Virus record (IMG/VR): IMGVR_UViG_3300025736_000112
Coordinates: 1 to 31,011 of that record
Direction: 5' to 3' (one strand)
Length of the DNA stretch: 31,011 bases
DNA from: a virus
This document shows positions 7,542 to 19,219 of the stretch, piece after piece. The notes below the pieces were generated by a model. That model was given only the letters and a program-made list of their open reading frames with translations. It made no database searches and was not told where the DNA came from. The position numbers and the translations under genes are program-made. The first letter of the stretch is position 1. Each line of letters starts with the position of its first letter.

Positions 7542-7958
7542 ATGGCTCTTTCACAGAACACACCCGCAAAACTTGACATTGGAGACTTTGAAGAGTTTAA
7601 TATTGTGGGTTCAGGTTGCGTAATTTATGAGGGCGCGGCAGTAGGTCTTATTACTGGAACGAAGCTGGCAAGGCCCCTGAATGCAAGGGATCAGTTTGCC
7701 GGTCACGCCCAGTTTAAGGTTGATAACACGCTTGGTGTTTCAACAAAACGTGTACAGACCCGCCGGAAATTTTATCAGCAGCAGGTATCAGTTCCAAGTG
7801 TTGCTGTAACAAGTATTGATGGTGCTGTATATATGTCAGATGATGGCACATATACTTTGACAGAAACCGCGGAAACAACTCTTGTAGGAAAAGTTGTCAG
7901 ATACGTTTCTTCAGGTGTTGCAATCGTTGAATTTGAGCCTCTTATAAGTAATCTTTAA
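7542..7958 (+). CDS. Capsid decoration/stabilising protein
   Basis: A 138-residue beta-rich, Gly/Val/Thr-rich protein between protease-scaffold and major capsid genes, where lambda D lies. The pattern GAAVGLITGTKLARPLNA, then FAGHAQFKVDN, then SIDGAVYMSDDGTYTLTE looks like the small beta-tulip cement proteins (gpD or DUF2190-like). These trimerise on the shell surface and stabilise it after expansion. A strong AGGAGGT site lies seven bases before the ATG, consistent with high expression. No signal peptide or cysteine bridge is evident. Assignment relies on composition and synteny. Confidence 0.65.
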   Translation: MALSQNTPAKLDIGDFEEFNIVGSGCVIYEGAAVGLITGTKLARPLNARDQFAGHAQFKVDNTLGVSTKRVQTRRKFYQQQVSVPSVAVTSIDGAVYMSDDGTYTLTETAETTLVGKVVRYVSSGVAIVEFEPLISNL

Positions 7959-8080: not shown

Positions 8081-9037
8081 ATGAAATACACTGGAATTAC
8101 CAGTAGAGAAGTAATAGGCACATTTTATGAGTTGCTGAACACTTCAATGGACACAGCTTGGCCGTTTCTGTTAGGTATGCTTTTTGATTCTAATCAGGAA
8201 TCAGAAACTTATAAATGGCTGGGTATGACTCCGGCGCTCCGTGAATGGATCGGTGGCCGCCAGGCTAAAGGCCTTAGAGAAGAGGGCGTAACCATTATTA
8301 ACAAAAAGTTTGAAGCAACATTAGAAATTGATGTTGATTCAATCAGGCGCGATAAAACCGGCCAGATCAATATTCGTATTGGTGAATTGGTTGACCGTGT
8401 TAATCAGCATTGGGCTAAATTGCTGACTGAACATATTATAGCCGGCTCGGCCGCAACACTTGGCCTGGCTTATGATGGTCAATTTTTCTTTGATGATGAC
8501 CATGTTTCAGGCGATTCCGGAACGCTTACAAATCTATTGTCCGCCACGGAAGTTCCTAACCTTAATGTTGGTACCGCTGCGGCTCCGACAGCCGATGAAA
8601 TGGCTTCTGCTATTATGGATGTCATTGCATATTTCTTTAATTATAAAGATGATCAGGGTCAGCCAATAAATGACGCCGCTAAAGAATTTTCAGTGATGGT
8701 TCCTGTTAATTTATATTCACCGGCATTACAGGCCCTTACTAAAAACAACCTTAATGTTGGCACTGGCGTAAGGGATAACCCTCTTGTTGGTGGACCTTTT
8801 AAAATCAGTCTAATTCCTAACTCTCGACTTTCTACAACAACTGAATTTTATGTTTTCCGGACAGATGCAAGAACTTCAGCCTTTATCTTGCAGGAAGAGG
8901 AAAAAGTAAAAATCCAGGCCGTTGCTGAAGGTTCTGAGCTTGAATTTAATGACGATGTTCACCGCTATGGTGTGAAGTCGCTTAGAAATGTGGGCTATGG
9001 TCAGTGGCAGTTTGCAACACACTGTACTTTGTCTTAA
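8081..9037 (+). CDS. Major capsid protein, Mu gpT-like
   Basis: A 318-residue protein resembling the Mu major head subunit gpT family, an HK97-fold shell protein. Visible family features: WLGMTPALREWIGGR near residues 46-60; a 'tiinkkFEaTLEIDVDSIRRDKTGQ' stretch around 75-98, partly diverged; ELVDRVNQHWAKLLTEHI; and AYDGQFFFDDDH near 129-140. Mu gpT is about 305 residues. It follows a strong AAGGAGG site, as a highly expressed gene should. The lambda-type packaging genes upstream make this a mosaic head. It forms the icosahedral shell with the scaffold and decoration proteins encoded just before it. Confidence 0.88.
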   Translation: MKYTGITSREVIGTFYELLNTSMDTAWPFLLGMLFDSNQESETYKWLGMTPALREWIGGRQAKGLREEGVTIINKKFEATLEIDVDSIRRDKTGQINIRIGELVDRVNQHWAKLLTEHIIAGSAATLGLAYDGQFFFDDDHVSGDSGTLTNLLSATEVPNLNVGTAAAPTADEMASAIMDVIAYFFNYKDDQGQPINDAAKEFSVMVPVNLYSPALQALTKNNLNVGTGVRDNPLVGGPFKISLIPNSRLSTTTEFYVFRTDARTSAFILQEEEKVKIQAVAEGSELEFNDDVHRYGVKSLRNVGYGQWQFATHCTLS

Positions 9038-9065
9038 ACAATAATAAAACGTTAGGGGGCTTATT

Positions 9066-9263
9066 ATGGCTAAAAATGTTAGGGAAGTAAAAGTTGTATT
9101 AACGAAGGATAGAAAAATCAATGGTAAAGATCGCAAGGCGGGGTTTGTTCTTATGATTGGAACTTTGAGTTCTGGGATAACAGCAAAGGATGTGGACCTG
9201 GCTATTGCAAGAAATACAGCCAGTGCCGTAGCCAAACCTGAAAAAATAGAAGAGGGCTCCTGA
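9066..9263 (+). CDS. Small head-region protein, unknown
   Basis: A 65-residue basic protein with a good ribosome site (TAGGGGG, 9053-9059). The N-terminal half is beta-prone (REVKVVLTKDRKINGKDRKA); the second half is helical (AKDVDLAIARNTASAVAKP). It directly follows the major capsid gene, where phages often encode small connector or completion proteins. No family was recognised. Its stop codon lies in the loop of a hairpin that leads into the next gene (see 9251-9286), which suggests the two are linked in expression. Confidence 0.7.
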   Translation: MAKNVREVKVVLTKDRKINGKDRKAGFVLMIGTLSSGITAKDVDLAIARNTASAVAKPEKIEEGS

Positions 9264-9286
9264 TCGGGGTCCTCTTTTAAAAGAGG
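9251..9286 (+). promoter_or_regulatory. Mutually exclusive hairpins over a ribosome site
   Basis: Hairpin 1: AGAGGGCTCC (9251-9260) pairs with GGGGTCCTCT (9266-9275) over a five-base loop; ten pairs including two G-U, with TTT after the stem. Hairpin 2: the perfect 16-base palindrome CCTCTTTTAAAAGAGG (9271-9286). It covers most of the AGAGGGG ribosome site (9282-9288) of the fibre gene starting at 9293. The two share 9271-9275, so only one can form. Hairpin 1 would free the ribosome site or weakly terminate; hairpin 2 would block translation. The layout is seen; regulation is inferred. Confidence 0.5.
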
Positions 9287-9292
9287 GGTAAA

Positions 9293-10555
9293 ATGGGAAC
9301 GCCAACAACAAATCTAAGCCTTTATAAACCGGACAAGGATGAAACCGGCTGGGATGCTTTAGTCAATGCAACATTAGACTTGATTGACACAGCGCTTGGT
9401 CTTAATTTTGATTCTACCGGTGATCTTGTAAATGGCTCTGATACAGAAGTAGCGTACCGTGATGGAAACACCCTTGCTTTTGACCCGGCTTTTACTTTTG
9501 ATAATATTTCCGGAAGTATTCATATTAGCGGAACAATTTCAGTGGGCGGTGGGGCTTTCAGTCTGCCTAAAGTTGACGGCACTGCGGACCAGATAATGAA
9601 AACAGATGGTTCAGGAAATCTTTCTTGGACCGCTGGCGCTATGACTCATAATGGGCTGTCAGGCTTGCAGGGCGGGGCCGCTGACGAATATTATCACCTC
9701 ACTGCGGCCGAATATACCAACTGGCAATTATTCAGCGCTGAAACGGCTTATATGCTCTTAGACGGGACAAGACCTTTAACCGGGGCCTGGGATGCCGGAT
9801 CATTTGAAATAAAGGCAGAAACGTTTGAAAGTGATATTGCCACTGGAACGGCCCCTTTTACTATTGCCTCAACGACTTTAAACGCAAATTTAAACGCTGA
9901 TCTGTTAGATGGCCTTGAGGGAAATCAATATTCTGTTGTTGCCGGTTCTGCCAGCATTGTGACGGTGGGAACAATAGGGACCGGGGTATGGGAAGGTACT
10001 GTTATTGGATCCGGGTTTATTGCAGATGATTTTTTAAAAAATGATGGTGATATAGGAACCGGTGTCTTTGATTTTGGAGGAGCGGACAGTTTTGAGATCC
10101 CAAACGGGAGCAGCGGAACAACTGACGTTACCGGCGAAATATTCCTTGATACAGATGGTGATGGCGGAACAAATTTCAGTGGGCCGGTTGTTCAAATATA
10201 TACAGGGTCCGCAAATGAATATTTATTTCCAGTTGCTTTACCTTTGGCCGCTTCCCAGGATAATTACATAATGACTTATGATGCCGCTGGGAAAACGGTT
10301 CAATGGGAAGCTGGCGGCGGCGCTGCATTAACAAGTTACCAGGAAGATTTAACAATAGATGCAGACGGTGATATAACATTAACACTTTCAAATACTCCAG
10401 ATGCAGATTCAACCGTTAATTTATATGTGAATGGAAAACACCAGCAGCAAGGATCCGGGAAAGATTATACTATTTCAAGCGCCACAATAACTTATTTAGA
10501 AAGAGATGTTGAATTAAAAACTACGGATGATATTGTCGCTACATATTTGGGGTAA
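9293..10555 (+). CDS. Fibre-like structural protein
   Basis: A 420-residue, Gly/Asp/Thr-rich beta protein typical of phage fibres. It opens with TTNLSLYKPDKDETGWDALV, a common fibre N-terminus. It contains LNADLLDGLEGNQYS near 201-215, the 'aLLDG...' signature of fibre shafts. The last 72 residues (349-420) are about 47% identical, without gaps, to residues 38-109 of the next gene's product. No signal peptide is visible. It begins a three-gene cassette placed between capsid and connector genes rather than with the tail genes, so a head fibre or an accessory surface protein is possible. Its ribosome site lies in a palindrome. Exact role unknown. Confidence 0.75.
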   Translation: MGTPTTNLSLYKPDKDETGWDALVNATLDLIDTALGLNFDSTGDLVNGSDTEVAYRDGNTLAFDPAFTFDNISGSIHISGTISVGGGAFSLPKVDGTADQIMKTDGSGNLSWTAGAMTHNGLSGLQGGAADEYYHLTAAEYTNWQLFSAETAYMLLDGTRPLTGAWDAGSFEIKAETFESDIATGTAPFTIASTTLNANLNADLLDGLEGNQYSVVAGSASIVTVGTIGTGVWEGTVIGSGFIADDFLKNDGDIGTGVFDFGGADSFEIPNGSSGTTDVTGEIFLDTDGDGGTNFSGPVVQIYTGSANEYLFPVALPLAASQDNYIMTYDAAGKTVQWEAGGGAALTSYQEDLTIDADGDITLTLSNTPDADSTVNLYVNGKHQQQGSGKDYTISSATITYLERDVELKTTDDIVATYLG

Positions 10556-10564
10556 GGTGAAAAA

Positions 10565-13174
10565 ATGAAATTATCAAAAAGGGAAAAAGTATTACTAGTT
10601 ATTTTATTTATAGTTGTTTTTGCTAGTTGTCTTTATAGCGGAAAGTTAAGCAGAAGACAAATAACAATAACACATTATATTGAAAATCTTCCTATTGATG
10701 ATAATGGTGATACTTCTTTTACTCTTGCAAATACACCTTCACAAAATAACGCTGTTAAATTATTTATTAATGGTCAGGCTGCAGAACAGGGGACCGGAAA
10801 AGATTTTACCGTTTCCGGAAAAACTGTTACTTGGCTTGATAGAAATTTTACACTTAAAGTGGAAGACATAATAATTGCTATGTATGAAGGATATACAACG
10901 GCAAGTGATGCAACATATACAGAAACTTTTTATTGTCGCGTTTCCGGTGATGGTTCTGCTCCTGAAACAAAAGCCGGTGCCTGGGATATGGATGATGTTA
11001 ATACTTCCGGAAATTGGGATACAGACGATTCTGATGATGGCAAATTGGGCCCTAATGACAGACTCATTGTTCTTGATGATGATGGTATTTTTAGGAAAGC
11101 TTTAACATATCAACAGTCAGGGTTAAGCGCTAAACAAATAACAATTGAAGGTGAATATGGTGGAACACCTACTTTAAATTGTTCTGATTTAGTTGCAACG
11201 TGGTCACAGTATGCCGCAACTGCTATTTATTCGGCTTCCGTTAATTGGACCACTGGTCATGTTTTTGAAGATATAATAACAGAGTTAACAGAAATTACCT
11301 GGGATACAAATATAGCAACAACGGCGGCCGCTATGAGCGCCGGGACTTTTTCGCTAGACGATGCGAATGATCTTTTATATGTTTGGGCTACAGATGGCGC
11401 GGACCCGGATACACATATAATGGATGTTTCTAATAGAGCTTTTTCCGTTAATCTTAACAATAAAAATTATATAACATTTAGGGGTATAACTTGCCAGTAT
11501 AGCAATACTAGTAGCCTTATAAGAAATTATGATTCTAGCGGAGCGGCCAGAGCAAATGTGATTATTAGTGGATGTATATTTAATTTTGCAGATGCAAGCT
11601 GGATCTGGATTTCTTTAGATAATGCAGCTGCCACAATGGTGGGCTTAGAAGTCTTTGACAATACTGGTAATACAGCTGGGGATTATGGTCTTTATTTTAC
11701 TGGTAATGGCGCTGAATATACAGATTCAGAATATTATAGGAATTATTTAACAAAGGCTCAAAAAGAAGCCTGTAGGCTAGACGGTGATAATGATGGCCTA
11801 TATACTCAAAATAAAATGATTCAAAACGGTATTGCTGATTCTGCTAGTATGATGATGGGCGGGACTAATAGCGGAACACAAATTACATTAAATTACAGTG
11901 ATAAAGTCGTATCCGGAAACACAAGCGCAGAAAACTTCTGGATAGGCGGCACCTCAACAGGAATAGATTTAAAATATAATATTTGTCTTAATGCAACAAG
12001 ATCCGCCGCGTTACATTTTGAATCTAATATTGATGACAGTTCACTTATTGGTAATTCTGTTTTTAATGCAAAACAGGGTGTTTCTTATGGTGAAGCCGGT
12101 CAATGTACTGGGCTTACAATGCAAAATAATGCATTTGATGAAATAGGTGTAGATGGCAATTTCGCTTCTGCAAATGCTTCTACATATACAGCAATAGACT
12201 ATAACCTTTGGGATGAAAACAGAAGCTTTGATGATAATGGTACCGGTAGAACTTTTTCTGAATGGCAGGGGCAAGGATATGACGTTAACGGTTTTTATGA
12301 AGACCCGCTTTATGTTGATCCAACAAACGGTGATTTAAGTTTACAAGCAACTTCCCCGTGTATTGATTCCGGTACAGATTTAGGGGATCCCGACACCTAT
12401 GCCCTTGATGACACAAGCGTATGGCCTTTAGTAATTGTTAAAAATCAGGATGATAGGGGTACTGGCTGGGAAATAGGTGCTTTCATTTATAACGAAAAAG
12501 GGTTTATCCGGGGAGAACAAACAAGCCTTGATTCCTTTTCTAAATTACAAACACAGATAAGTGATAAGACACTAATTAATGAGGAAGATCAAATTAATTT
12601 TGATATTTTTCCCATTACACCTTCAGCGGCCCCAGATGCGGATTACGAAGTTTCCAATAAAAAATATGTTGATGATAACGCTGGCGGTTCAACGGAAGTC
12701 AATCTTGAACTTATGCCACAACAGGGAAAGCTCCCTTCAAGTGATCCGGCAAGAATTGATGCAGCAAATAATGGATGGCGTTTGCTTTTTGATGATACAA
12801 CCCAGCAAACCGCAGTATGGGAAAAAGCTCTTGATGATGATTATGGTGGGGGAACATTATATTGTGATATTTATTTTTCAATGTTAAGTGGTGAATCAGA
12901 TGAAGTTCAATTTGAAGTATATATTATGGCTTATACACCCGGAACAGATTCAGCGGACTGGGACACAGATTCTTATGATACTGAAAACGTTGGGGTAACA
13001 ACGGTGGCCGCTACAGCCGGAAGATTATATAAACAAACAATTACTTTAACAAATAAAGATAGCGCGGCGGCCGGGGATATGTTGAGAATAAAAATTTCCA
13101 CTGATAGTGATGACGCTGGAAATGATGACGCTACAGGTGACAGGGAGCTACGCTATGCGATTATTCGTGAGTAG
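10565..13174 (+). CDS. Spike-like beta-helix protein with export signal
   Basis: An 869-residue protein. Residues 1-22 are a basic start and hydrophobic core ending VVFASC, a plausible lipobox with C22; it could instead be a signal anchor. Residues 38-109 repeat the C-terminal domain of the previous protein. The middle (about 110-640) has short repeated beta strands with Asn/Cys/Ile ladders, such as IISGCIFNF and LTMQNNAFDEIG, as in right-handed beta-helix spikes. It contains SPCIDSG near 596 and WEIGAF, a pattern seen at the end of bacterial surface beta-helix proteins. NKKYVDD near 698-705 is a common phage-fibre junction, followed by a C-terminal beta domain. An export signal on a fibre-like phage protein is odd. 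Binding of host surface glycans is inferred. Confidence 0.72.
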   Translation: MKLSKREKVLLVILFIVVFASCLYSGKLSRRQITITHYIENLPIDDNGDTSFTLANTPSQNNAVKLFINGQAAEQGTGKDFTVSGKTVTWLDRNFTLKVEDIIIAMYEGYTTASDATYTETFYCRVSGDGSAPETKAGAWDMDDVNTSGNWDTDDSDDGKLGPNDRLIVLDDDGIFRKALTYQQSGLSAKQITIEGEYGGTPTLNCSDLVATWSQYAATAIYSASVNWTTGHVFEDIITELTEITWDTNIATTAAAMSAGTFSLDDANDLLYVWATDGADPDTHIMDVSNRAFSVNLNNKNYITFRGITCQYSNTSSLIRNYDSSGAARANVIISGCIFNFADASWIWISLDNAAATMVGLEVFDNTGNTAGDYGLYFTGNGAEYTDSEYYRNYLTKAQKEACRLDGDNDGLYTQNKMIQNGIADSASMMMGGTNSGTQITLNYSDKVVSGNTSAENFWIGGTSTGIDLKYNICLNATRSAALHFESNIDDSSLIGNSVFNAKQGVSYGEAGQCTGLTMQNNAFDEIGVDGNFASANASTYTAIDYNLWDENRSFDDNGTGRTFSEWQGQGYDVNGFYEDPLYVDPTNGDLSLQATSPCIDSGTDLGDPDTYALDDTSVWPLVIVKNQDDRGTGWEIGAFIYNEKGFIRGEQTSLDSFSKLQTQISDKTLINEEDQINFDIFPITPSAAPDADYEVSNKKYVDDNAGGSTEVNLELMPQQGKLPSSDPARIDAANNGWRLLFDDTTQQTAVWEKALDDDYGGGTLYCDIYFSMLSGESDEVQFEVYIMAYTPGTDSADWDTDSYDTENVGVTTVAATAGRLYKQTITLTNKDSAAAGDMLRIKISTDSDDAGNDDATGDRELRYAIIRE

Positions 13175-13913
13175 TCTACTATGGCTTCTACTATGCTTTC
13201 CATGCCATGCAGAGGTATTTGATGCTACAGATGATTATATGCGATCATCCTTTACAGGCGTGTCAAATTATCCTTTCTCGATCAGTGCATGGGTGTATGC
13301 AATCAATGATAATGATGCGAGATGTATTACTCTGTGTGATGGTACAGCATCTGGAGAATATGCCACGATAGGAATGGGGCGGTATGGAACGGACTCTTTA
13401 TATATGAGTATCCGTGTTGGTGGGGGTGAATATAAACTTCAAGGTGATACAACGAACTGTGAAGACTCATGGAATCATGTTGTTGCTATATGGAGAAGTA
13501 AATCAGACAGACAGATATACATAAATGGTGCAAGTGAGGGAACAGATGCGACAGATGTTGGTGATTTCCTTGCTGCTGTTAATAGATTTTCAATTGGTTG
13601 TCTGGATAGATCATCTCAAGCAAATTATTGGGATGGATATATTACAGAGGTGGCAATATGGTCATCTGATATATCGACAACAGCAACAAATATCCCATTG
13701 CTTGCAACATCAAAAGTAAAAGGAATGCCATTACAAATAGATCCTACGAACCTTGAAGCGTATTTTCCGCTTGACGATGTTGCAGATGGAGAAAGCGCAG
13801 ACGGGTTAACATATAAAGATAGAAGCGGGAATGGAATTGATTTAATAGCCGATGACGGGGCAAATAATACAGGTATGACAGCAAGAGCGGAAGAAGTTTT
13901 AAGTTATCAATAA
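13155..13913 (+). CDS. Secreted LamG/concanavalin-like lectin domain protein
   Basis: The start is set at ATG 13155, seven bases after AGGGAG and overlapping the previous gene by 20 bases. This gives a textbook signal peptide, MRLFVSSLLWLLLCFPCHA, with cleavage likely before EVFDATDDY. The mature ~230 residues follow the LamG/concanavalin pattern: FDATDDYM, PFSISAWVYA, SWNHVVAIW, IYINGASEG, IGCLDRSS, GYITEVAIWSSDIS and LEAYFPLDD. Such domains bind carbohydrate. Unlike its neighbours the gene has no CCGG or GGCC, suggesting recent acquisition. It may alter or decorate the host surface (lysogenic conversion or superinfection exclusion) or be an adsorption protein. The domain is clear; the role is inferred. 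Confidence 0.78.
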   Translation: MRLFVSSLLWLLLCFPCHAEVFDATDDYMRSSFTGVSNYPFSISAWVYAINDNDARCITLCDGTASGEYATIGMGRYGTDSLYMSIRVGGGEYKLQGDTTNCEDSWNHVVAIWRSKSDRQIYINGASEGTDATDVGDFLAAVNRFSIGCLDRSSQANYWDGYITEVAIWSSDISTTATNIPLLATSKVKGMPLQIDPTNLEAYFPLDDVADGESADGLTYKDRSGNGIDLIADDGANNTGMTARAEEVLSYQ

Positions 13914-13929
13914 CAAAAGGAGTGGTTAG

Positions 13930-14109
13930 ATGGCACTTTATAGTTTAACGGATCAGCAAGTAGTAAATATTAAAACAATAATGAGCAAGGCAACAATTTT
14001 GGGTACTGAGGTCCCGGCTTTTGTTGACTGTATGAACGCGTTTAAGCCGGTAACAATACCTAAAGTTAGCTTAGACGAAAAGAAGGATGAAAAAAAGAAT
14101 GACGTTTAA
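13930..14109 (+). CDS. Small connector-region protein, unknown
   Basis: A 59-residue open frame with a good AAAGGAG site seven bases before its ATG. It starts MALYSLTDQQVVNIKTIMSK and ends in a Lys/Asp/Glu-rich tail (DEKKDEKKNDV). It overlaps the next gene by up to 23 bases. It is probably a helical head-tail connector or completion factor because of its place, but no family was recognised. The single cysteine (C34) and short length leave little to say about fold. Confidence 0.65.
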   Translation: MALYSLTDQQVVNIKTIMSKATILGTEVPAFVDCMNAFKPVTIPKVSLDEKKDEKKNDV

Positions 14110-14443
14110 ATCAAATTTATCAGTTGATGCAATAGCCGCTTTTTTAAATACGGATGAATTTGCGGAGGTCATTGCTTATACACCTTCCGGCGGGGCCGCT
14201 AAGAATATAAACGCCATTGTTATTCGTGACCGGGTAGATTCCGATGTTTCAGACGGCGGCCGGTCACTTCAAAACAGGGCGGAAATATTTATAGCAAAAG
14301 ATGCCACTAACGGTGTAACCAGTATTAATAAAGGCAATGATACCGTTGTAATGGTTGATCAGTATGGAACGTCAAAAACTTGGCTTGTTATTGATCTTGT
14401 CGTTAACGATGACGGAATGTGGCATTTACTTATGAGACTATAA
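14087..14443 (+). CDS. Head-tail attachment protein, FII-like
   Basis: A 118-residue protein, almost the same size as lambda FII (117), and in the same place before the Z-like gene. It has an N-terminal helix with DAIAAFLNTDEFAEVIAY, then beta strands (AIVIRDRV, AEIFIAKDA, DTVVMVDQYG and TWLVIDLVVND), matching the head-tail joining fold. It would attach the completed head to the tail terminator. The start may be ATG 14087 or ATG 14099; both lie within the previous gene's end. Only position, length and pattern support the family. Confidence 0.68.
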   Translation: MKKRMTFKSNLSVDAIAAFLNTDEFAEVIAYTPSGGAAKNINAIVIRDRVDSDVSDGGRSLQNRAEIFIAKDATNGVTSINKGNDTVVMVDQYGTSKTWLVIDLVVNDDGMWHLLMRL

Positions 14444-14445
14444 TT

Positions 14446-15069
14446 ATGGCATTTCAATATGTAGAAATACATCAGAGAAGATTACAGAGAGCCTTAAAAA
14501 GGTTTCCAGGTGTTTTGTATCTTGAATTTGAGGATGCCTGGGATCATATAGCCAGGAAATTTTTGAAAACGTTTAGATTGACCCGGTTGCAAGGACCCCC
14601 AGGTATCCGCGGGGGTGGTGCAAGCGGCAAGAGTGGCATATTTAATCGTTTCAAAAAGAAAAAATTAAGGGCAAACGGTAATCTTGAAAATATGGGAATT
14701 GAGATCTACACGATGTCAAAAATTGCTAAGCTTCACGAAACTGGCGGAATTGTTACTGGTAGATCCGGCCGGTTAGCCGTCCCTTTTTCTCAAGGTTATA
14801 GACCTAAAATGTACACACCCCGGGGAAGATTAAGAGGAAGATTTAAAGACGTAACCAAAGTAAAAGGAATATTTGAAATGCAATTTGGCGGGAAAACTTT
14901 TTTGGCAAAATCAAACAGAAGATTAAGAAAAACAGAGCTCCTATATGTTCTGAAAAAGAAAATCAGACTGCGGCCCCGGCTTGGTTTTATGAAAACCTGG
15001 GATAACGGAATAAATGACAGGATGCGGATTATAAATAAAGCAGTTGATAAAACTTTAAGGGTGGCATAA
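14446..15069 (+). CDS. Minor tail/connector protein, gpZ or gp10-like
   Basis: A 207-residue strongly basic protein. The start is taken at ATG 14446, three bases after the previous stop; an earlier ATG at 14419 would overlap. It contains a helix (LQRALKRFPGVLYLEFEDAW), a Gly/Arg/Lys loop, then IAKLHETGGIVTGRSGRLAV near residues 92-111, the usual 'H..GG....' segment of the lambda Z/HK97 gp10-like group, and a C-terminal MKTWDNGINDRMRIINKAVD. These proteins act at the head-tail joint between FII and U. The order FII, Z, U is preserved here, which raises confidence. Confidence 0.72.
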   Translation: MAFQYVEIHQRRLQRALKRFPGVLYLEFEDAWDHIARKFLKTFRLTRLQGPPGIRGGGASGKSGIFNRFKKKKLRANGNLENMGIEIYTMSKIAKLHETGGIVTGRSGRLAVPFSQGYRPKMYTPRGRLRGRFKDVTKVKGIFEMQFGGKTFLAKSNRRLRKTELLYVLKKKIRLRPRLGFMKTWDNGINDRMRIINKAVDKTLRVA

Positions 15070-15072
15070 AAA

Positions 15073-15537
15073 ATGGCGAATACAGTTCGTGAAAATATTA
15101 TGGCCAATATCAAAACTACCCTTGAGGGTATAACAACTGTCAATGGATATGATATCACTATTAATAGTGTTCAGCGCTGGAAACAAGCAGGTCAGGTCCT
15201 TGGCACGCCGCCTACAATAATTGTTAATGCCGGGCCTGAAAATACATTATATCAGCCGGCCAATATTCTGACAAAATCATTTAGTGTTACTTTGGAATGC
15301 TGGATTGTTGATGATGAAGGATCTACTGACCCAACAGATCTAATTTTAAATAAAATATTAGGTGATGTTGAAAAAATAATGATGCTTGATATAACAAGGG
15401 GCGGTTATGCAAAAGACACTAATATTGTATCCAGCGTTCCTTTTGAAACTGAAATAGGTCAGCCGGATGCTGGCATTATTATAGAAGTTAAAATAGATTA
15501 TCGTCAATTAATCAGTGATCCCAAAACTGCAATATAA
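15073..15537 (+). CDS. Tail terminator protein, gpU-like
   Basis: A 154-residue alpha/beta protein. It has an N-terminal helix (VRENIMANIKTTLEG), a strand with 'tPPTIIVNAGPE', SFSVTLECWIVDD around residues 76-88, and a helix LILNKILGDVEKIMMLD. This is the arrangement of the tail terminator family (lambda U, 131 residues), which caps the growing tail and joins it to the head. It lies between the Z-like gene and the tail tube gene, as in lambda. Extra residues are mainly in loops. Assignment is by order, size and pattern. Confidence 0.7.
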   Translation: MANTVRENIMANIKTTLEGITTVNGYDITINSVQRWKQAGQVLGTPPTIIVNAGPENTLYQPANILTKSFSVTLECWIVDDEGSTDPTDLILNKILGDVEKIMMLDITRGGYAKDTNIVSSVPFETEIGQPDAGIIIEVKIDYRQLISDPKTAI

Positions 15538-15552
15538 AAAGGAGGCCATATC

Positions 15553-16698
15553 ATGGCATTAACGAGATTACGTCAATTAGCGGCAAGAGAGGAAGCAGTG
15601 TCCGGAACAGCTATTGCATTAACTGCAGCTTACGGAAAGCTTTTAGTGGAAGATCCTAAAATGAGTCACGAGACAGAGATGTTTCCGCGAAATCCTGTAT
15701 TAGCCACTTTTACAAAGCTTGGTAGATTGGCTGGAAAAAGACCGGCCACCCTTGGGTTTAATATCCTTATGCAGGGATCCGGAGCAAAGGCAACGCCCCC
15801 GGAATGGTCTAAGCTGATCAAATCTATGGGATTCAGCGAGAATCTTATGGAACAGATCACTATTGGAGCGATCACCAGCGGGCCCCTTTTGCACGGTGAG
15901 GGCATAACCGGCACTAGCTCAAGCGCTACTGGCACTGTTGTTAAAAACACCGTAGACGACACCACAACGCTTTATTTCGTTACTTTGACCGGAACCTTTG
16001 AAACAGGCGAAGTAGTTACCGGCGCAGTGTCCGGCGCAACGGCCACAACCTCCTCAGTCCCTTCCGATGCTGGAACGGTCTGGTTACCGGCAAACGTAGA
16101 TATTAACACTTTAACCCTGGGAAGCTATGAAGACGGCGTTAAAAAGCTTATTAAGGGCGCAAGAGGAAAGGGAAAGCTCAACTTTAAAACGGGTGAGCCT
16201 TGTATTATAAATGCTGAATTTATGGGTGTGAACGCTGGTGTTACAGATGTTGATTTACTTGCTATTGATTACGGAACGCTGCCGGTTCCGCCGGTCCTTC
16301 TCCAAGCCGCTTTCACTTCTGGTGATGATTCCTTGAGAATAAGTGAACTGGAAATAGGCTTTGAAAGTACCCTGGCCCCGGTTGATGACATTTCCGATGC
16401 AGCCGGTTTGCATTCTTATAGGATTACAGACAGGCAGTTTGTTTTTTCATATGATCCTGAATCTGAGCTTGTGGCCAATAGGGATTTTTACGGTAACTGG
16501 ATAGCAAATACAGAATCATCTTTATCTATGACGCTTGGGGTTAATACCGGAAACAAGTTTGAATTTTACGCTCCAAAGTCTCAGATAGATAAGATAGAAG
16601 ATGATTCCCGCGAAGGGATCCAAATAAACAGAATTACCGGAGTATTGAACGGTAATGAAAACATTCAGAATGATGAGTTTTGTTTTATTCAGCTTTAA
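15553..16698 (+). CDS. Major tail tube protein
   Basis: A 381-residue beta-rich protein after a strong AAAGGAGG site, placed where tail tube genes lie. It begins MALTRLRQLAAREEAVSGTA; the 'E...GT' opening is common in tube proteins. A Thr/Ser/Gly-rich segment, about residues 116-176 (GEGITGTSSSATGTVV through GATATTSS), looks like an inserted surface domain. It is flanked by the tube-like parts, such as ARGKGKLNFKTGEPCIINAEF near 202-222. It would stack as hexamers around the tape measure. It is larger than lambda V (246), consistent with the insert and extra C-terminal region. Confidence 0.78.
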   Translation: MALTRLRQLAAREEAVSGTAIALTAAYGKLLVEDPKMSHETEMFPRNPVLATFTKLGRLAGKRPATLGFNILMQGSGAKATPPEWSKLIKSMGFSENLMEQITIGAITSGPLLHGEGITGTSSSATGTVVKNTVDDTTTLYFVTLTGTFETGEVVTGAVSGATATTSSVPSDAGTVWLPANVDINTLTLGSYEDGVKKLIKGARGKGKLNFKTGEPCIINAEFMGVNAGVTDVDLLAIDYGTLPVPPVLLQAAFTSGDDSLRISELEIGFESTLAPVDDISDAAGLHSYRITDRQFVFSYDPESELVANRDFYGNWIANTESSLSMTLGVNTGNKFEFYAPKSQIDKIEDDSREGIQINRITGVLNGNENIQNDEFCFIQL

Positions 16699-16726
16699 AT
16701 AACTAAACTGTTAGGGAGGAAAGATC

Positions 16727-17155
16727 ATGGCTTTAACTGGAATTAATTTTGCACAAACTGAATCTTTTGTATCTGAGTATGATCAGGATACAGAAAACCC
16801 CACAACCTTTGAGTTAGGAATGCTTGACAATACGATTCAGACACATATTGATAATGAATCCGTAGCGTTTAAAAGCAGTTCAAAAAAAGGAAAGGATCCC
16901 GCTATTGCTAATATTCTAATGGGAACAAAGAACTATTTGACGGTTCGCTTTGGTGTAAAAAACATTGATAATTTTTTGCACCCGGATACTGGGGATGCTA
17001 TTCCTTTTAAAACTCAGAGCGTTCCTTTTGGTCATAGAAATTACAATGCTGTTGCCTCAGATATTATGAATTTAATTCCACGTGAAGTTATTTCTGAATT
17101 GTCAAACAGAATTTCCGAATTGAATGATTTTAAAGAGGGCGAAAGAAAAAACTAA
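16727..17155 (+). CDS. Tail assembly chaperone, gpG-like
   Basis: A 142-residue soluble, acidic-to-neutral protein between the tail tube and tape-measure genes, with a good AGGGAGGAAAG ribosome site. This is the place of lambda G (140 residues). Its last codons are AGA AAA AAC TAA, giving a perfect A AAA AAC slippery site just before the stop, so a fraction of ribosomes should read on into the next frame. The chaperone binds the tape measure and coats it before tube polymerisation. No enzyme motif is seen. The strongest evidence is the frameshift layout. Confidence 0.82.
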   Translation: MALTGINFAQTESFVSEYDQDTENPTTFELGMLDNTIQTHIDNESVAFKSSSKKGKDPAIANILMGTKNYLTVRFGVKNIDNFLHPDTGDAIPFKTQSVPFGHRNYNAVASDIMNLIPREVISELSNRISELNDFKEGERKN

Positions 17156-17514
17156 TATTGGCGATTGAAGCATCCTTTTTGGGCTTGGATTGCCACAAAT
17201 GTACAGAAGAATCAAAGATCTATGATGGATGCGAAAGTGACTCACCTGTTCCGGATGTATGGCAAATTAGAAGTATTGATTGGAAGTCACAGAGGTGCCC
17301 TTTAAAAGTAGTAACAAGACAGTCACAGAAATTTTTACAGGCTTATTTCTTTTTTTCAAAGGGTTATTTACCATCGGCCGGTGGATGGTTAGAACAATCA
17401 ACACGATTTATTGAGGCAATGGAAACTATTGAAACAAGCATTAAGAGAATAGAAAGTGAAGAACAAAATAAAGTTAAAAAGAAAATAGGAAAAAAACCTA
17501 ATGCCAACAAATAG
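16727..17514 (+). CDS. Frameshifted chaperone fusion, gpGT-like (-1)
   Basis: Slipping back one base at 17146-17152 joins the 142-residue chaperone to the downstream frame, which runs to a stop at 17512-17514. The fusion has about 262 residues; lambda GT is 279. The downstream part has no convincing start of its own: its first candidate is TTG at 17158, without a ribosome site. It carries LDCHKC and further cysteines (DGC, QRCP), possibly a metal site, then a Lys/Glu-rich helical tail. The T part links the tape measure to tube subunits in lambda. Frame geometry is seen directly; frequency is unknown. Confidence 0.8.
17146..17152 (+). promoter_or_regulatory. -1 ribosomal frameshift heptamer A AAA AAC
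   Basis: The heptamer lies in the zero frame of the chaperone gene as AGA AAA AAC, immediately followed by TAA at 17153. Both tRNAs can re-pair after a -1 slip (X XXY YYZ rule). The -1 frame is then open for 120 codons. No stimulating stem-loop was worked out. Confidence 0.82.
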
Positions 17515-19219
17515 ACAGCTTACTATTATTGCCAGGGTCAAAGACGAAGTAACAAAAAGAATGAAGGGCATAAGCGGTTCTTTAATTCGTTTTGGTACTT
17601 TCTTTGGAAAACACTGGAAAGGAATAACGGCTGGCATTATTGCTTCTGTTATAGCTGTTAAAAAAGTATGGGAACAATTTAAACTATCACAAAAAATCGA
17701 ACAGCAAAAAGATGCATTTAGTAATTTATCAAAATCTTTTCAGGTAGATTCTAAAGAAATGGTTAAGGCTTTAAGAGCCGCCTCCGGAGCCACTATAACT
17801 ACAATGGATTTAATGACTAAAGCCTCAACAGCTATGGCCTTGGGGATCGATCCTTCCCGCTTATCTGAATTGATGAGAGTGGCCAGAGCTTCCGCCCGCG
17901 CTATGGGTGAAGATGTGGGAACCATGTTTAATGATATTGTGAAAGGTATTGGCCGGCAGTCAAGGATGATTCTTGACAATCTGGGTATCATAGTTAACTC
18001 AAATGATGCTTATAGAACTTATGCCAAAACATTAGGAATAACTGTTGGAGAAATGACTGATCTACAAAAAAAACAGGCTTTTATGAATGCAACTTTAGCG
18101 GCCGGTGAAATAATAATAAAAAGAGTTAATTTAGTTGGTAGATCACAAGCAGAAAATATTCAAGCAATAGAAGCGGCTTTAATAGATGCAAAAAATGAAT
18201 TATTAGCTTTCATGACTGCCTCTGCTAATTTAGGTGAAACAGCCGATGCTTTTATATTTTTCGCACGCGGCCTGGAGGATATACGATTAGGCGGCCCGAT
18301 TTCAAAGATGCGGGAATTAATGGCTGAAATAGAGGCTGGCCCATCTAAATTTCAATTATTTATGCAAGCTATTGATAGGACATTTGGTCTTCCGGTCATT
18401 GACAACATGGATAAATTACGGGAAGAATTAGAACAGATTGTTATGACCTTAATTAAAATGGATGTAATAGTTGACCCGGATGTTTTTAATTTTTTAGATG
18501 ACGCGGCAGTAAAAAGATTAAAAGATTATGAGGAAGCATTATCCAAAATACATCTTAAAGCTGTTGTAATAAAAGCATTTGAGCCAGCAGATTTTGAATT
18601 TTTTGATGATGCTCAAATAGAAAGAATGAGAATGATGCAAACCGAAATTATTAAAACTAATGAATGGTTAGAAAAAACAAAAGTTAAAGTATCTGAAATA
18701 TCAAAAGTAATGATAGACGGTATAAAAAATGCCGTTAGTGGAATGACAAATCTTTTAGGTGATTTCTTTTATAATTTTTTAACCGGTGCTTTTTCAGATA
18801 TGGCTTCCGCCTTTTCAAACTTTGGTAGTTTTATGTTGAGGATCATGGTTCAAATAATAGCAAAGATGTTAATGATCTGGGCTGTTGGTAAATTAATAGG
18901 CATGTTCTCAGATGCCGGGTTTACAGGTATAAGTGATTTACTGTCAAAGGCAGTTCCTGAAGCGGCCCCTTCATTGTTAATAGGAACTTCTTCTGTCAAG
19001 GATCGCGGGTTACATATGCTTGAACAGGGTGAAAAGGTAACGTCAAAGAATGCAGCTGATAACGATGGCGGCGGCGGGGATACGTATATTGTAGCTAACA
19101 CCTTTACTTTCATGCACCCTGAAGATATGCAGCGGCATAGCCAGGCTTTAGAATCAATTATAGATCGTTCAATAAATAGAAATTCACCATTAAGAAAATC
19201 TATAATCCGCTTAACATAG
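17501..19219 (+). CDS. Tail tape measure protein
   Basis: A 572-residue, mostly helical protein directly after the G/GT-type chaperones. Features include an N-terminal RVKDEVTKRMKGISGSL, hydrophobic stretches near 37-50 and 425-465, and a central ATITTMDLMTKASTAMALGI, RVARASARAMGEDVG and DLQKKQAFMNATL typical of tape measures. The end (HMLEQGEKVTSKN, then a Gly-rich segment) is also common in the family. At about 0.15 nm per residue it would set a tail of roughly 85 nm, an estimate from family rules. It overlaps the chaperone frame by 14 bases. It is injected or sits in the tail lumen during infection. Confidence 0.9.
   Translation: MPTNRQLTIIARVKDEVTKRMKGISGSLIRFGTFFGKHWKGITAGIIASVIAVKKVWEQFKLSQKIEQQKDAFSNLSKSFQVDSKEMVKALRAASGATITTMDLMTKASTAMALGIDPSRLSELMRVARASARAMGEDVGTMFNDIVKGIGRQSRMILDNLGIIVNSNDAYRTYAKTLGITVGEMTDLQKKQAFMNATLAAGEIIIKRVNLVGRSQAENIQAIEAALIDAKNELLAFMTASANLGETADAFIFFARGLEDIRLGGPISKMRELMAEIEAGPSKFQLFMQAIDRTFGLPVIDNMDKLREELEQIVMTLIKMDVIVDPDVFNFLDDAAVKRLKDYEEALSKIHLKAVVIKAFEPADFEFFDDAQIERMRMMQTEIIKTNEWLEKTKVKVSEISKVMIDGIKNAVSGMTNLLGDFFYNFLTGAFSDMASAFSNFGSFMLRIMVQIIAKMLMIWAVGKLIGMFSDAGFTGISDLLSKAVPEAAPSLLIGTSSVKDRGLHMLEQGEKVTSKNAADNDGGGGDTYIVANTFTFMHPEDMQRHSQALESIIDRSINRNSPLRKSIIRLT

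Follow-up and report, generated by a model that had tools for sequence, protein, structure and literature searches.

Signal-bearing and signal-free forms of a CBM-like/LamG gene pair in phages, and an inserted fibre-lectin cassette next to a Mu gpT-type capsid gene

Genes at the locus

The window, meaning the whole stretch of DNA analysed here (31,011 nucleotides), is a 31-kb viral fragment from IMG/VR in which profile searches identified a lambda-type portal, a Mu gpT-type capsid and tail genes; it also encodes a central-fibre J protein and RecT-like recombination genes. A single ORF at 94-1392 matches ParB-like and DNA methyltransferase phage families alike. Three genes, termed g1, g2 and g3, lie between the capsid gene and the head-closure gene (Table 1), and the profile matches of these two borders confirm the placement given in the first-pass annotation, which had described a fibre/lectin cassette with export signals.

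Table 1. Features of the cassette and of its borders, in window coordinates
Feature	Position	Strand	Evidence
Major capsid gene, Mu gpT type; left border of the slot	8081..9037	+	PF10124 9e-36, phrog_371
Small 65-aa gene adjoining the capsid gene	9066..9263	+	profile matches in L005, L007, L014, L015, L050
g1, fibre-like, no export signal, 420 aa	9293..10555	+	
g2, signal-bearing fibre, 869 aa	10565..13174	+	
g2 hydrophobic N-terminus, MKLSKREKVLLVILFIVVFASC	10565..10630	+	heuristic score 7.6; AAGGTG upstream of ATG
g2 domain common to the g1 C-terminus	10664..10891	+	sequence comparison
g2 residues 502-603, similar to the end of a solved parallel beta-helix protein	12068..12373	+	phmmer to 9rx2, 2e-5 and 5e-6
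g2 C-terminal CBM-like beta-sandwich	12695..13171	+	AlphaFold2 pLDDT 89.1
g3 (ORF 13107-13913; likely start 13155)	13155..13913	+	LamG, PF13385 2e-19
g3 putative Sec signal peptide, MRLFVSSLLWLLLCFPCHA, followed by E	13155..13211	+	heuristic score 5.68
59-aa ORF closing the inserted stretch	13930..14109	+	
Head-closure Hc1-like gene; right border of the slot	14087..14443	+	phrog_82 7e-6, PF05354 5e-5

About 100 loci with related capsid genes were collected, and the distance from capsid to head closure (the slot) was measured in 62 of them. This distance is 5,050 bp in the window and less than 700 bp in 49 of the 62 relatives, and the g1-g3 trio is therefore inserted cargo. In the near relatives L005, L007 and L050 the slot spans 296-376 bp and holds just one gene of 57-71 aa; the small gene adjoining the capsid gene of the window is kept in the nearest relatives without the cassette. 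The earlier description of the trio as a distinct module is borne out by this insertion and by the lack of the trio in the nearest capsid relatives checked for it. Other cargo is found in the same slot: a 483-aa protein of the fibre-LamG type without a signal (L014 and L015), three different genes (L026 and L027), and several signal-bearing genes, one of them encoding a LamG protein (L029). The LamG region of L014 has a further match, to a Pfam family whose name refers to a clostridial receptor-binding domain; the LamG match is the stronger, and the other is read as a shared fold only.

The last 76 aa of g1 (10325-10552) are 46% identical to g2 residues 34-109 (E 4e-19). The end of g1 is the same domain as the start of mature g2, as if a gene had been split or a domain duplicated. 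Neither viral contigs nor named phage genomes yielded a relative when whole g1 and g2 served as queries, and NCBIfam, PHROGs and Pfam gave no family name for g2. A beta-helix had been proposed in the first-pass annotation; residues 502-603 of g2 do resemble a solved protein of this kind, whilst the full-length structure model (pLDDT 36) lends the proposal no support.

The C-terminal domain of g2 (the last ~150 aa, residues about 711-869) was modelled well, and structure comparison of this model with CBM36, CBM35 and CBM6 gave Z about 12 and rmsd 2.6-2.8; it has the beta-sandwich fold of the CBM6/35/36-type galactose-binding-like modules (Z 12.7, rmsd 2.7 over 121 residues). Among viral models it resembles uncharacterised phage proteins and giant-virus collagen-repeat proteins. 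It has one cysteine, and its sequence has no match in Pfam or in the PDB. The LamG (concanavalin A-like) domain predicted for g3 from the outset was recovered at 70.7 bits against a gathering score of 27.6. A search with g3 returned two distant viral-contig matches, plus weak LamG matches in two Synechococcus phages. Both proteins look glycan-binding, a likely property given the modelled CBM-like fold of the one and the LamG fold of the other, although a shared fold alone is no proof of function.

Export signals and their background

Signal-peptide calls were made with a home-made heuristic that accepts OmpA, PhoA and MalE and rejects LacZ; the signals of L106, L161, L162 and L134 were called by eye. 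The first-pass annotation had seen a clear Sec signal in the third gene, and it becomes clean once g3 is started at ATG 13155, the better start, which is preceded by a Shine-Dalgarno-like AGGGAG. From there g3 has a basic n-region, a hydrophobic core and small residues at -3/-1; in g2 only the n-region and the core are present. The strongly hydrophobic core of g2 follows a basic start and coincides with a helix at residues 5-24 in the otherwise poor full-length model. A strict lipobox reads [LVI][ASTVI][GAS]C and follows a hydrophobic core. The VVFASC of g2 fits a loose version of this pattern, but the Phe of FASC at -3 falls outside the strict motif and positive charges come after it, so that the hydrophobic N-terminus noted earlier stands and its lipobox is doubtful. 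Within the window only the g3 signal is clean, because g2 lacks an AxA site of the textbook kind and its lipobox is weak. The g2 N-terminus may be a signal peptide, a lipoprotein signal or a signal anchor, the last two both being kept as candidates since Phe at -3 is atypical and the charges follow.

In the window g2 and g3 are positive by the heuristic and all other listed genes, g1 included, are negative; the export signals once ascribed to the cassette hold for two of its genes. As background, the heuristic was applied to 522 genes lying upstream of the relatives' capsid genes and flagged 9, which makes two adjacent positives by chance unlikely. With the background this low and the signals recurring in relatives, chance hydrophobicity was ruled out.

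Other signal-bearing cassettes occur among the late genes of L019, L020, L021, L029 and L107. Tail gene J of L107 is followed by about ten genes in a row (8144-18726) with signal-like starts, called partly by eye; one of them encodes a beta-helix plus F5/8-type protein. A beta-helix protein in L021 (6214-7782) has an internal RREALKI stretch ahead of a hydrophobic segment, possibly Tat-like. A signal-bearing protein with a choice-of-anchor Q domain is encoded in L017 (14794-16968), a phage record in which a tyrosine integrase is present as well. In five relatives (L017 8009-8950, L031 8359-8973, L045 8038-8643, L065 6544-7122 and L030 6258-6977) the head decoration protein, homologous to that at 7542-7958 in the window, is preceded by an in-frame hydrophobic leader of 50-100 aa; in L017 the decoration protein lacks the Met of its usual start.

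Two forms of the CBM-like/LamG pair

The first-pass annotation named no known system with this gene set. This did not hold: the C-terminal domain of g2 and LamG form a common neighbour pair in phages, in a signal-free form. In most of 47 phage loci the next gene after that for the CBM-like domain encodes LamG, usually 0-20 bp away. In form A, which accounts for most loci (L108, L111-L144, L154-L157), both proteins are signal-free, the CBM-like protein has 160-180 aa and a LamG relative of g3 comes next; as queries, such standalone CBM-like proteins found no match in named phages. In form B (the window, L106, L107, L110, L146, L162 and L163/L164, at least six viral contigs besides the window) a signal is present on each of the two genes, and a long fibre ends in the CBM-like domain. 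The median length of the CBM-like protein is 175 aa in form A and 776 aa in form B. The LamG signal of form B is an N-terminal extension, the domain beginning at residue 35-50, as against 15-35 in most form A proteins. The idea that the cassette is bound to one genome position was rejected, as form B pairs also occur after J (L107) and near holin-like genes (L106), and L163 and similar loci have a different gene order.

Signals on the two genes co-occur, both in the fully automatic calls (5/0/4/30, p=2e-4) and with the calls by eye included (7/0/1/31, p=5e-7), p-values that ignore relatedness and are optimistic because the tree tips are related. One locus, L159, is discordant, with a signal on LamG only, and its domain ORF starts 27 bp from the contig end. 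In L106 (106-2288) the signal-bearing start and the fibre/CBM-like ORF are out of frame with each other around a C8 run, which is why its signal was assigned by eye; a sequencing error and phase variation would look alike here. In a tree of the 47 domains the signal state requires about six gains or losses, at least four of these changes being forced by well-supported branches. Among signal-free relatives, L154 has the domain nearest to that of the window, and its LamG neighbour is likewise without a signal.

Cysteines are expected where disulfides can form. In the CBM-like domain they number 1.56 per 100 aa in signal-bearing and 0.54 in signal-free proteins (p=6e-4, again optimistic; p=5e-4 in the automatic set), and whole signal-bearing CBM-like proteins are similarly enriched (p=3e-4, relatedness ignored); the cysteine content of LamG shows no difference between the two forms (p=0.34). 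Other genes near the pairs have signals in 12.8% of cases for form B against 2.3% (p=4e-4, relatedness ignored). In bacteria the domain was found with a signal in a Nitrospira genome (L152; 1 of 296 genomes of that phylum) and without one in a delta-proteobacterial genome (L153; 1 of 297), too few matches to name a host.

Interpretation

Phage fibres are usually viewed as virion parts assembled in the cytoplasm. The form A pair is probably such a virion appendage, since it is signal-free and stands among structural genes, and the pair has apparently switched several times from an ordinary appendage to proteins sent out of the host cytoplasm. With modest confidence we favour the reading that the window pair is a set of glycan binders derived from a virion appendage, now directed by Sec to the periplasm or cell surface and made together with the late proteins. 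Both genes would have gained Sec signals here, and separately in other phages, with the CBM-like domain joined to a long fibre; the trio, inserted after the capsid-side genes and ahead of head closure, would be transcribed with the late genes. Products g2 and g3 would then cross the inner membrane by Sec, fold in the periplasm, probably with disulfides in many members, and serve as glycan binders outside the cytoplasm, either held in the envelope, displayed on the surface or freed at lysis. By occupying surface sugars they might exclude superinfecting phages, alter adhesion or protect the progeny; exclusion, adhesion and release at lysis are candidate roles. Actual export, like the role, we infer, and the same applies to passage across the outer membrane, for which no route is visible. 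The two readings offered in the first-pass annotation, host-surface proteins or head fibres of odd origin, each survive in part, the pair looking like an appendage by origin and an exported one by signal. More tentatively, and at somewhat less than an even chance, several unrelated phage lineages may have independently converted a virion appendage pair to Sec-exported proteins, always both partners.

Three other explanations appear improbable. Under the first, the fibres fold in the periplasm, are stabilised there by disulfides and join particles once lysis mixes the compartments. This would suit the place of the form A pair among structural genes (judged from gene order and lengths), the fibre-like architecture, the form B cassette of L107 after tail gene J, a usual fibre site, the cysteine enrichment of form B CBM-like domains and the in-frame leader of the head decoration protein; against this, g2 and g3 have no recognisable virion-docking domain and no precedent was found in the literature searched, which leaves it an unlikely account. 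Nor is it probable that the three proteins are ordinary head or neck fibres, all made in the cytoplasm, whose hydrophobic N-termini are buried oligomerisation or docking segments. The trio does adjoin the capsid genes, g2 lacks a textbook cleavage site, the signal-free fibre-LamG protein of L014 and L015 occupies the same slot, and a ConA-lectin protein encoded near head genes, phiCbK gp76, is a proposed head filament (PMC3556154). Yet a basic n-region, hydrophobic core and AxA-like sites recur in the divergent sequences of both partners, the signals co-occur and cysteines rise with them.

Similarly low weight is given to lysogenic conversion genes (morons), expressed from the prophage, not late in infection, and serving exclusion or adhesion. 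Exported surface proteins are known phage cargo, the Ltp lipoprotein being one (PMC3952083); L017, a relative with a signal-bearing beta-helix protein, has an integrase, and L085 lies within a large Nitrospira contig. As for morons, extra genes stand between functional phage genes, but the trio shares the strand and spacing of the late genes, no separate promoter for it was found in the window, and neither promoters (18 vs 17 expected) nor forward terminators exceed chance level. A tyrosine integrase is absent from 12 of 13 records, many of them fragments. This late-operon position, with no promoters beyond chance and no tyrosine integrase in the window record, does not suit a classic lysogenic-conversion gene.

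If the independent conversions are real, they would mean that a class of phage proteins has gone unrecognised whose place of action, or of attachment to the particle, is outside the cytoplasm. The homologous pair, with and without paired signals, is a natural experiment on lectins sent outside the cell, and puts to a concrete test the idea that phages send out fibres in order to block, coat or mark hosts, or even to complete virions after lysis.

Comparison with known systems

The window pair shares homologous domains, identical order and, mostly, adjacency with the form A pair, and differs from it in that form A is signal-free with a short CBM-like protein. To our knowledge, Ltp of TP-J34 is neither a fibre nor a lectin, and its gene is not among head genes. 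What this superinfection-exclusion lipoprotein has in common with the proposed pair is that it is phage-encoded and exposed on the host cell surface (PMC3952083). The phiCbK protein gp76 is likewise large, has a ConA-like lectin domain and is encoded in a structural module nearer to head than to tail genes, but it is one protein of 2,799 aa and the description consulted mentions no signal peptide (PMC3556154). In the literature searched, whose coverage is incomplete, PblB was the one direct precedent for phage structural proteins with a signal. PblB is a phage tail-like adhesin; a predicted signal peptide is given for the pneumococcal form, and that of Streptococcus mitis is drawn without one (PMC4508584). 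PblA and PblB of Streptococcus phage SM1, like pneumococcal PblB, are prophage-encoded, resemble tail proteins and bind glycans on cells; they differ in their Gram-positive host, in being single proteins and in having no CBM-LamG pair, and the likeness claimed is one of functional analogy only. By that analogy PblB is the closest counterpart found, and the window pair may be compared to it as a variant of known phage-encoded adhesins.
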